A stretch of 64,000 bases of DNA from positions 1-64,000 of the forward strand of contig JAFOLW010000029.1 of assembly GCA_017419165.1 (NCBI GenBank), written 5' to 3'. Each line of letters opens with the position of its first letter. Position 1 is the stretch's first letter. Source of the stretch: Erysipelotrichaceae bacterium (GTDB lineage: Bacteria; Bacillota_I; Bacilli_A; Erysipelotrichales; Erysipelotrichaceae). The notes below the pieces were generated by a model. That model was not told the origin of the DNA, did no database searches, and worked only from the letters and a program-made list of their open reading frames with translations. A program made the translations under genes and the position numbers. Positions 44,567-50,515 of this stretch are shown piece by piece.

Positions 44567-46129
44567 ATGAAAAACAAGGGGATCGTTCTGCTCTGCATCC
44601 TGATGATGGTCTCTTGTCTGAGCGCATGTTCATCAAGTACCGTTCCGGATTTTACCGGTCACAACGTACTGGAGGTCTATCAGTGGTGTTCTTCGATCGA
44701 TACGAAGTATGCCTGTGAAGTCTCTTATGCCGACGGCAACGGTGCGGAAAAAGATACCGTCATCGAACAGTCGATCAAGGGCGGCAGCCGCCTGAATTCC
44801 GATATCTCGTTCAAGATCTCCAACGGTGCCGTCGCCGAGATCCCGGTATTGCACATCGACGAAGAGACACAGAAATCCGATGTCGAGCTCTGGAGACAGA
44901 ACAGCGGCATCCAGTCGCTGACTTATATCGAAGAAGCTTCCGACACTGTCGAGAAGAACCACGTCATCCGCATCCAGCCGGCTTCCGGCATCCGCAAGGA
45001 TACGCCGGTGACCGTCTATATCTCTTCCGGCAGGAAGCAGGATGAAACACCGGTCAATACCGAGATCCAGATCGTCTTCGGCGATTTCATCGGACTGACC
45101 GTCGAACAGTTCGAAGCCAAGGCCAGACAGCTCGGATTGAATCCGAACCACAATACGACCCGTGACCGTTTCAACAAGGATGTCGCTTTCGGCAACATCG
45201 CATGGCACGGTTCGGGCACCTATGTGAAAGGTGAGACCTTCAACTACGGTATCTGCATCAATGCGATCGAAGTCATCGGCGGTACCTACATCGGCCTGAG
45301 CGAGTCGGATTTCCTGTCGAAAGCCAGGGAGCTGACGCTCTCACCGAAGCACATCTACGGACGCGATGCCTATTCCACCAGGATCTCCGAAGGTTATATC
45401 GTCACGCACGGTTACGGTACCTATGAGAAGGGCGAAGAGTGGAAATACGGTCTGTCTCTGGGTCCGGCAAGAGTCGTTTCCGGATATGAAGGATCCAGCG
45501 AAGAAGCTCTGCTCAACTACCTCAACGGCATGGGCCTGAAGGGCAGCCGTACGACAGCCAAGTCATCCACGGTCCCGGAAGGAAGGATCATCTCCTACAA
45601 TACCGGCAAGTATTCCAGCGGCGACTCCGTATCGTATGTCGTTTCCGCAGGTTATGACATCTATGTCAACGTTCCGGATTTCAAGGGCGAGACCGAATCC
45701 TCCTTACTGGAATTCTTACGCGGCAGCGGTCTGAACGTCGGTATCCGCACCATGCAGTCATCACTGGTCCCGGCAGGCAACATCGTTTCCAACGATACCG
45801 GTGTACGTACCAAGGGTTCCAAGATCGACTATGTCGTCTCTTCCGGTCCGGTCATTCCGATGGGTCACTTGGACAGTTTTGCGGATATGAAGACGATGTT
45901 GTCGGATTACGACGTCGGTTTCTATGCCGCGAAGGCAAACGTCGAACAGTATCTCAAGAACCGCGGTTTCACCGATTATGAGATCTGGGGCGAATATTCC
46001 GAGAAATACTATGACGGAACTCTGTTGTATGTCGTCGTCGGCGATCACACGCTGTCAGGCGCAGATGACTTCCCGACCTATTCGCACATCATCGTTTCGA
46101 TCAGTGCGGATCTTTATACGAACAACTAA
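44567..46129 (+). CDS. PASTA-repeat lipoprotein
   Basis: A 520-residue secreted protein with lipobox LSAC (Cys21). At least five PASTA-like units follow, each starting like VPDFTG, DFIGLTVEQ, TYIGLSESD, YEGSSEEAL, VPDFKGETES and containing an LGL or SGL turn. Known: PASTA domains bind peptidoglycan and normally sit on Ser/Thr kinases or penicillin-binding proteins; here no kinase is attached. AGGAGG precedes the start. It is coupled with the lipoprotein gene before it. Confidence 0.8.
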   Translation: MKNKGIVLLCILMMVSCLSACSSSTVPDFTGHNVLEVYQWCSSIDTKYACEVSYADGNGAEKDTVIEQSIKGGSRLNSDISFKISNGAVAEIPVLHIDEETQKSDVELWRQNSGIQSLTYIEEASDTVEKNHVIRIQPASGIRKDTPVTVYISSGRKQDETPVNTEIQIVFGDFIGLTVEQFEAKARQLGLNPNHNTTRDRFNKDVAFGNIAWHGSGTYVKGETFNYGICINAIEVIGGTYIGLSESDFLSKARELTLSPKHIYGRDAYSTRISEGYIVTHGYGTYEKGEEWKYGLSLGPARVVSGYEGSSEEALLNYLNGMGLKGSRTTAKSSTVPEGRIISYNTGKYSSGDSVSYVVSAGYDIYVNVPDFKGETESSLLEFLRGSGLNVGIRTMQSSLVPAGNIVSNDTGVRTKGSKIDYVVSSGPVIPMGHLDSFADMKTMLSDYDVGFYAAKANVEQYLKNRGFTDYEIWGEYSEKYYDGTLLYVVVGDHTLSGADDFPTYSHIIVSISADLYTNN

Positions 46130-48883: not shown

Positions 48884-50515
48884 ATGAACAGATTTGTAAG
48901 AATCGTCCTGTGTCTGCTGATGAGCGTTTCGCTTTGTGCCTGTGCAAAGAGCGAAGGACCCTCGGAAAGCACGGCAGAGGTGAAAGAAGAGGAGACTTCT
49001 TCTCCTGCGACAGTCACCGTAAATAACGTCGAAAGCTTTTATCAGTCGCTTGTCAATGAATACGGCTATGTGGACATGTATAACAATGAGACGGCAGCAG
49101 AGGCGTATTCGCGATACCGCGGTTTTGCGAAGAAGCTTCTGGTCGACGCATGTAAGGAGAACGACAACGAGATCATCTCGCCTTTGTCTCTTTACTATGC
49201 CATGGCGATCCTGGCCAACGGTGCCGGAGGATCGACGAGAGCGCAGCTGGAGAACGCGCTGGGGATGAGCGTCGAAGACCTCAACAGTTTCCTGAAGGAC
49301 CTGGACAGCGTTCATGCCGGATGGGATGGCCAGGCGGCGTTCCGGAAGGTCAATGCCTTGTGGTTCAATACCGCCAAAGGCATGAAACTCAAAGAAGGCT
49401 ATAAGGATACGGTCGGCGAGTATTACGGAAACGGCATCGGCGAAAGCGACTTCACGAATGCTTCCGATCTGGCCGAACAGGTCAACTATTTCGCTTCCAA
49501 CTGCAGCTACGGTACCATCAACGACATCGTCAGTGCGGAAGACTTTTCGTCGGATACTTCGTTTTTGATCCTCAACGGACTGTCGACGGGCGACCGCTGG
49601 GCATTCCCGTTTGACGCTTCCGCTACCGCTCTTCAAAGTTTTCACAACTACAAGGGAGAGGATACGGTCGTCGAGATGATGCATCAGGAACTCTGGGGAC
49701 ACTGGCAGGGGAACGGTTACAGCGGCTTTGAAAAGAGGCTGGACAATGCCGTCGATTTCGTGGCGGTCCTTCCGGATGAAGGCACCGACATCTACGATTT
49801 CATCGCCGGGATGTCCGACAACATATTCAACGAACTGAGAGCTACCTATGAGGAATACAGCAACATGACGGAAGACGGCAACTACGGCTGCACCGCCGAT
49901 GAGAACATCACCCGCCTGTCGTTCCCGAAGTTCGATTATGAAAAGGAATACGATCTCAACGAAGTGCTTTCCGGGATGGGACTGGCCGATATCTTTGACT
50001 ATACGACGTCGGATTTCTCTGAGATGGCGGAAGGCGATCCGGATCTCGTCTCAGCCTTGTATCTGGAAAAAGCGAAACAGAAATGTACGATCAAGGTCAA
50101 CGAAGAGGAAGTCGTGGCAACAGCGGTGACGGTACTGGCCGGCGGTCTGGGTGCCGGGGGCTGTGAGATCAGAGAGACGATCTATCACGATCTGGTCTTT
50201 GATAGGCCGTTCATTTTCGCACTGATGTCCGGGGAGACGCCCTTATTCTACGGAGTCGTCACCAGACTGGGCGAGCCGGCGGATCAGCTGATCAGGATCG
50301 AGAACATCACCGGCAAGATCAATATCCGCAACAGACCTTCCAAGAGCGGCGAAAAACTCGGCACATACCAGAAGGGCGAGATCATCTACGCTTATGAGAA
50401 AGTCGAAGCGGAAGGCTATACCTGGTATCGGATCGGTGAAGACAGATGGGTCGCCGATCAGAAGGGGGGAATGGATCAAGGTCCTGGATTAAGGAAAGAA
50501 AAAAAGAGATCCTAG
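48884..50515 (+). CDS. Serpin-family lipoprotein with C-terminal SH3 domain
   Basis: A 543-residue secreted protein. Lipobox LCAC at Cys20, an acidic linker, then a serpin domain (about 55-470): NEIISPLSLYYAMAILANGA, LILNGLSTGDRW, the hinge EEEVVATAVTVLAG before the reactive loop, and FDRPFIFALM as the C-terminal strand. The hinge has small residues at most P12-P8 places but Glu where Gly is usual at P15. A bacterial SH3 domain (NIRNRPSKSGEKLGTY to WVADQ) follows. Known: bacterial serpins inhibit host or gut serine proteases. GGGAGGA precedes the start. Confidence 0.88.
   Translation: MNRFVRIVLCLLMSVSLCACAKSEGPSESTAEVKEEETSSPATVTVNNVESFYQSLVNEYGYVDMYNNETAAEAYSRYRGFAKKLLVDACKENDNEIISPLSLYYAMAILANGAGGSTRAQLENALGMSVEDLNSFLKDLDSVHAGWDGQAAFRKVNALWFNTAKGMKLKEGYKDTVGEYYGNGIGESDFTNASDLAEQVNYFASNCSYGTINDIVSAEDFSSDTSFLILNGLSTGDRWAFPFDASATALQSFHNYKGEDTVVEMMHQELWGHWQGNGYSGFEKRLDNAVDFVAVLPDEGTDIYDFIAGMSDNIFNELRATYEEYSNMTEDGNYGCTADENITRLSFPKFDYEKEYDLNEVLSGMGLADIFDYTTSDFSEMAEGDPDLVSALYLEKAKQKCTIKVNEEEVVATAVTVLAGGLGAGGCEIRETIYHDLVFDRPFIFALMSGETPLFYGVVTRLGEPADQLIRIENITGKINIRNRPSKSGEKLGTYQKGEIIYAYEKVEAEGYTWYRIGEDRWVADQKGGMDQGPGLRKEKKRS

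Follow-up and report, generated by a model that had tools for sequence, protein, structure and literature searches.

Can a bacterial serpin held at the cell surface still trap a protease when its hinge carries glutamate at P15, where glycine is usual, and its reactive loop is rich in glycine? The question is raised by a gene in a 64,000-nucleotide stretch of Erysipelotrichaceae DNA, here called the window. The host genome is a MAG of 1.79 Mb in 77 contigs, about 73% complete, in which this gene is both the sole serpin and the sole SH3_3 match. The original prediction described its product as a serpin lipoprotein with an SH3 domain, and the analysis confirms the open reading frame, with the lipobox verified by pattern and the full serpin domain and C-terminal SH3 by Pfam. 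The features of the gene are as follows.

48884..50515, + strand: SH3-serpin open reading frame, 543 amino acids in the window, from the ATG at 48884 to an in-frame stop that ends at 50515.
48884..48943, + strand: predicted lipoprotein signal peptide with lipobox LCAC and lipid-modified Cys20 (lipobox pattern).
49121..50263, + strand: serpin domain, residues 80-460 (Pfam E 6.2e-61; conserved positions; fold match Z 39.7).
49889..49891, + strand: Cys336, in the stretch before strand s2C, a possible disulphide partner of Cys427 (co-occurrence with Cys427).
50102..50128, + strand: hinge P17-P9, E-E-E-V-V-A-T-A-V, with Glu at P15 (aligned hinge positions).
50141..50161, + strand: conserved Gly-rich bait GGLGAGG, residues 420-426, approximately P4-P3' (GGLG identical in 17/17 members).
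50162..50164, + strand: Cys427, on the P' side of the reactive loop (sequence comparison).
50306..50492, + strand: C-terminal bacterial SH3 (SH3b), its last strand in a shifted frame (Pfam SH3_3; AF2 pLDDT 83; matches to wall-binding SH3b domains).
50464..50469, + strand: G6 run, one base longer than in relatives, a probable assembly indel or else a real frameshift that costs the SH3 its end.

The protein belongs to the serpins. Its match to PF00079 (MEROPS I4) in the Pfam protein scan is full-length, spanning profile positions 5-368 of 370, and the shutter and breach residues are in place: S99, P100, S102, P442 and F443 are found in all 17 members of the family described below, W239 in 16 of the 17, and N231 is invariant in a 13-row alignment. 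The structure prediction proposed at the outset was carried out with AF2 using eight sequences (pLDDT 68, pTM 0.59), and comparison of the model with PDB serpins by VIA-align recovers the serpin fold across the whole domain, with Z up to 39.7 and 356 residues aligned at 2.5 Å. The top structural matches are mostly loop-inserted serpin forms, and first by Foldseek is tengpin of Thermoanaerobacter tengcongensis (PDB 2pef, 2pee, 2vh4), a member of the prokaryotic serpin Group T (PMC8233489). Tengpin is also the closest solved serpin by sequence (E ~1e-29) and shares the bacterial serpin fold, but it is only about 26% identical, has Gly at the position equivalent to P15, and its match ends at residue 461, with no SH3. 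The AF2 model draws P15-P6 as a strand with moderate confidence, and the reactive loop at the GGLGAGG stretch is left unmodelled (pLDDT ~31-50).

Both ends of the protein point to the cell surface. The N-terminus, MNRFVRIVLCLLMSVSLCAC, contains a hydrophobic core and the lipobox L-C-A-C at residues 17-20, ending at Cys20, as judged by pattern only. At the other end, SH3_3 (PF08239) matches residues 479-524 with E 2.2e-5. The protein scan scores it at 25.0 bits, just short of the cut-off of 27, and the genome scan at 29.2 bits, which exceeds it; in relatives a single repeat reaches as much as 44 bits. Modelled alone, the SH3 has an AF2 pLDDT of 83, and its top Foldseek matches are the wall-binding SH3b domains of PlySb (ClyR), Ly7917, lysostaphin (5leo) and ALE-1 (1r77), with probability 1.00, TM to query of about 0.7 and E-values that are weak, as expected at 64 residues. 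These domains resemble the window SH3 in fold and in Pfam SH3_3 membership but sit on wall hydrolases, whereas here the module is on a serpin and its wall ligand is putative. Similar C-terminal SH3 domains occur in the same bacterial family on WG-repeat lipoproteins, a DUF3160 lipoprotein, a LytR-CpsA-Psr wall protein and an M56 membrane protein. The domain therefore looks like a surface module in common use among these bacteria, one that was recruited once to a serpin. We note that one further open frame (L044, 1770-4229) joins ECF sigma factor regions, WG repeats and a C-terminal SH3, an odd cytoplasmic-to-surface arrangement.

The extreme C-terminus of the window protein needs separate comment. 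Its last ~15 residues (GMDQGPGLRKEKKRS) align with no relative, and the 15 relatives whose gene end is known finish in the manner of KGEWIKVLD followed by the stop. Removing one base from the six-G run restores GEWIKVLD-stop, an ending of the kind seen in those relatives, with the stop at 50490-50492; the frame as read overlaps the convergent PfkB gene by four bases. These final residues are probably wrong, owing to one extra G, for which an assembly indel is the simplest reading; were the frameshift real, the SH3 would lose its last strand.

Relatives were gathered with a profile of the first seven sequences, and the search for the SH3 fusion in other genomes recovered this architecture, with at least 17 members, from two genera within a single family, the Erysipelotrichaceae. 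The 17 aligned proteins fall into group I (n=9, from the window genus) and groups II (n=3) and III (n=5) from the other genus; one group I protein, L068, runs into masked bases before its C-terminus, so that its SH3 is unseen and its membership is counted from the rest of the sequence. Those records that carry a name are MAGs of Erysipelotrichaceae or Solobacterium, and their samples come from goat or water-buffalo (ruminant-gut) or have no stated source. Outside the two genera, samples of 395 class-level and 392 phylum-level genomes contained no SH3-serpins, only ordinary serpins, and a literature search found no paper joining a serpin with a bacterial SH3. The earlier remark on the rarity of bacterial serpins overstates the case here: within this lineage, 28 of 101 relatives carry a Pfam serpin. 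The SH3-serpin L035 (1819-2448), and likewise L013, has three tandem SH3 repeats of about 65 residues each.

The breadth of this distribution bears on whether the architecture is an artefact of assembly or annotation, such as a chimeric contig or a fusion of two genes. The fragmentation of the source MAG and the frameshifted last 15 residues could be taken to favour this, but the same architecture recurs, at ~31-56% identity, in MAGs that are independent of each other, come from different samples and span two genera, and the gene order around the window gene is common to L033; we give an artefactual origin of the architecture almost no credence, and reject a gene fusion because independent MAGs have the same architecture.

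In a tree of 53 serpins, drawn with the reactive loop left out, the 17 SH3-serpins form one clade (support 100/99) within which groups I and II are joined (100/97), and a single change suffices for the gain of the SH3 and another for the substitution of P15 Gly by Glu or Lys. As judged from the alignment and this tree, the SH3-serpins are a genuine single-origin family of predicted surface-tethered bacterial serpins. The lipobox pattern is present in the window protein and in 11 of 16 relatives, with a near-lipobox, CTGGC, in two more (L062, L063); the others either have a transmembrane anchor or share a copy. An export anchor is kept in every member with a known N-terminus though its type changes, from lipobox or near-lipobox to a plain transmembrane helix (L069) or a zinc ribbon with a transmembrane helix, the last in L067 (1492-3462), where these N-terminal elements replace the lipobox. 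The SH3 is more conserved than the serpin (mean identity 73% vs 54%). The proposed surface display by a lipid anchor and a wall-type SH3 is therefore supported: the anchor is kept, and the SH3, which has the fold of lysin and lysostaphin wall-binding domains, is also found on other exported proteins of the same bacteria.

Efficient insertion of the cleaved loop is tied to a P15 Gly (PMC3689916, PMC4223420), a residue that makes a tight turn with torsions open to glycine alone (PMC3689916) and is a mark of inhibitory serpins (PMC4223420). The window hinge, which reads N-E-E-E-V around P15, matches the inhibitory consensus at P17 (E407; Glu) and P16 (E408; Glu, Lys or Arg) and fails it at P15 (Glu409 rather than Gly) and P14 (Val410 rather than Thr or Ser), with most other hinge positions kept. 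The Glu at P15 that had been noted from the window alone is real and no stray mutation: it is a once-derived feature kept in 12 of the 17 members, with Glu in 10 and Lys in two across groups I and II, Gly in all five group III proteins, and Gly in 36 of 36 comparison serpins. These counts rest on the aligned set, a pattern-based survey of P15 having been dropped because of false matches outside hinges. Loop insertion also needs small residues at P12-P9 and an uncharged P14 (PMC3689916, PMC4223420). All 17 members keep Glu at P17, Glu or Lys at P16 and an uncharged P14, and P12-P9, A-T-A-V in the window, read A, T/S/A, A, V/A across the family, small though not all Ala, Gly or Ser. In so tight a turn, Glu or Lys at P15 could slow or abolish inhibition. 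The doubt that had been voiced about inhibitory ability was justified, and is sharpened by the conserved P15 Glu/Lys together with the retained small P12-P9; it nevertheless seems likely that the window protein inhibits a protease.

In most serpins no part changes faster than the reactive loop. The other serpins of this order, of which 36 were compared (34 after removal of near-copies), follow this rule, their loops having a mean identity of 0.14 and ranking 295 of 370 windows, among the most variable; in the SH3-serpins the loop has an identity of 0.52 and ranks 83. At matched divergence, with the rest of the domain 40-50% identical, loop identity is 0.675 in SH3-serpins versus 0.227 in other serpins, and the longest shared loop word averages 6.0 residues versus 1.9. 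The Gly-rich loop originally singled out, AGGLGAGG at residues 419-426, is real, and it is the most telling part of the SH3-serpin, being conserved in a region where divergence is the norm for serpins. Its GGLG is identical in 17 of 17 members even though a mean of 2.8 of the four codons differ per pair (16 sequences), which reflects purifying selection rather than recent descent, and a bait so nearly fixed suggests that all members act on the same kind of partner. The loop, measured from P17 to the xPF motif, is 34-36 residues long in SH3-serpins versus 29-33 in other serpins, and in group III the GGLG motif lies one residue nearer the hinge. This shift, with hinges of 17 and 16, makes Gly423-Ala424, or one residue to either side, the most plausible scissile bond.

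Just beyond the bait, Cys427 is accompanied by Cys336 in eight of the nine group I sequences, and both are absent from L068 and from groups II and III. The pair may represent a single event on the tree, and the two may form a disulphide that links the loop's far side with the stretch preceding s2C.

We judge the chances slightly better than even that this is a surface-held serpin, retained by membrane and wall, that traps one conserved class of serine (or cysteine) protease. The predicted lipid would anchor the serpin in the membrane and the SH3 would bind the cell wall, so placing the exposed GG-L-G-A-G loop where a protease could cut it, probably near Leu422-Gly423 or Gly423-Ala424 if hinge length is a guide. 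By the habit of the family, the cut loop would then insert into sheet A, with the enzyme caught as a covalent complex beside the cell. With the loop fixed in both genera, one conserved class of target is more likely than a shifting set: it would be an elastase- or subtilisin-like enzyme that accepts small residues and is either the bacterium's own product or widespread in the ruminant gut.

The charged P15 invites a different account, in which groups I and II are substrate-like or slow serpins whose loop is cut by a protease that mostly escapes, so that the protein would serve as a surface decoy or signal its own cleavage through the stressed-to-relaxed change, group III alone still being inhibitory. 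That Gly gave way to Glu/Lys once, on the branch from which groups I and II descend, with the new residues retained thereafter, while no comparison serpin departs from Gly at this position tied to efficient insertion, speaks for such a loss; yet the small P12-P9 and the GGLG bait are unchanged in these same groups, as if insertion were still selected, and the strand drawn by AF2 at P15-P6 is against it too. We consider this unlikely. The conservation of the loop, unusual for a bait, could instead mean that it is a binding or folding element of a surface protein that traps no protease, perhaps tied down in group I by the Cys336-Cys427 disulphide, and the co-occurrence of that pair in group I and the presence of the SH3 module on many exported proteins that are not inhibitors fit this reading. 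However, the hinge, shutter and fold are largely those of working serpins, and the Cys pair, which groups II and III lack, may have arisen in a single event, so that a non-inhibitory role appears quite improbable. A more specific proposal, which we regard as tentative and on balance doubtful, is that this lineage, with its fixed charged P15 and a bait loop under strong purifying selection, inhibits (or reports cleavage) at the surface by a modified insertion directed at a single conserved partner, helped in group I by the loop-to-body disulphide.

For the surface-held inhibitor, the closest functional precedent is the dockerin-anchored PinA type (PMC5301203, PMC8201313). The cellulosomal PinA of Clostridium thermocellum, which inhibits subtilisins (PMC8201313), and its dockerin-bearing counterparts in Ruminococcus flavefaciens and R. 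albus are likewise modular and held at an extracellular structure by an extra module, and a role in fending off proteases has been proposed for them all (PMC5301203, PMC8201313). They differ in being anchored through dockerin to the cellulosome, whereas the window family uses a lipid or transmembrane helix and an SH3, and the Pfam scan found no dockerin module in the window protein, which is thus not of the cellulosomal PinA type. Miropin of Tannerella forsythia and the siropins of Eubacterium likewise come from bacteria that live with animals and are serpins directed against proteases in the cell's surroundings (PMC8233489, PMC5127057). Those papers report no SH3 fusion for them, and between siropins the loops are only 48% identical (PMC5127057), in contrast to the nearly fixed loop described here. 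The unusual points of the family are this fixed bait loop and the fixed charged P15: a natural bacterial family of single origin departs from two serpin rules of thumb, Gly at P15 and hypervariability of the reactive loop, while the other machinery is kept. Since architecture and bait are the same in group III (P15 Gly) as in groups I and II (Glu/Lys), they provide a natural matched pair for testing the role of P15. An inhibitor tethered at the surface with an unchanging bait would also suggest that gut Erysipelotrichaceae face a common protease pressure.

The genomic surroundings offer no candidate partner: the gene sits in several different contexts, and no conserved neighbour or protease gene was found near the SH3-serpins. 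The window order (flavin reductase, unknown, YgjV/GNAT-like, serpin, PfkB, M24 peptidase, MetK) is the same in L033, indicating that the locus was inherited there. No link to S8 subtilases was seen, these being present in four of eight SH3-serpin genomes versus 11 of 28 others of the genus, with no S8 match in the 73%-complete host MAG, and co-occurrence with C1 papain-like proteases gave no usable signal.

Several other genes were encountered along the way. A PASTA-repeat lipoprotein is encoded at window positions 44567-46129, 2.7 kb upstream of the serpin; in L034, too, the serpin has a PASTA protein close by, next to a GntR-ABC-FtsX set. The same genus contains very large open frames for S8-type subtilases, 1,100-2,450 amino acids long (G010:C58, G006:C23, G030:C3 and others). 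Finally, a serpin with no export signal (L023, identical to L110; G070:C38, 415-2025) is fused in frame to an M48-type metallopeptidase (PF00079, E 1e-59; PF01435, E 1.5e-11), placing an inhibitor fold and a protease in one polypeptide.
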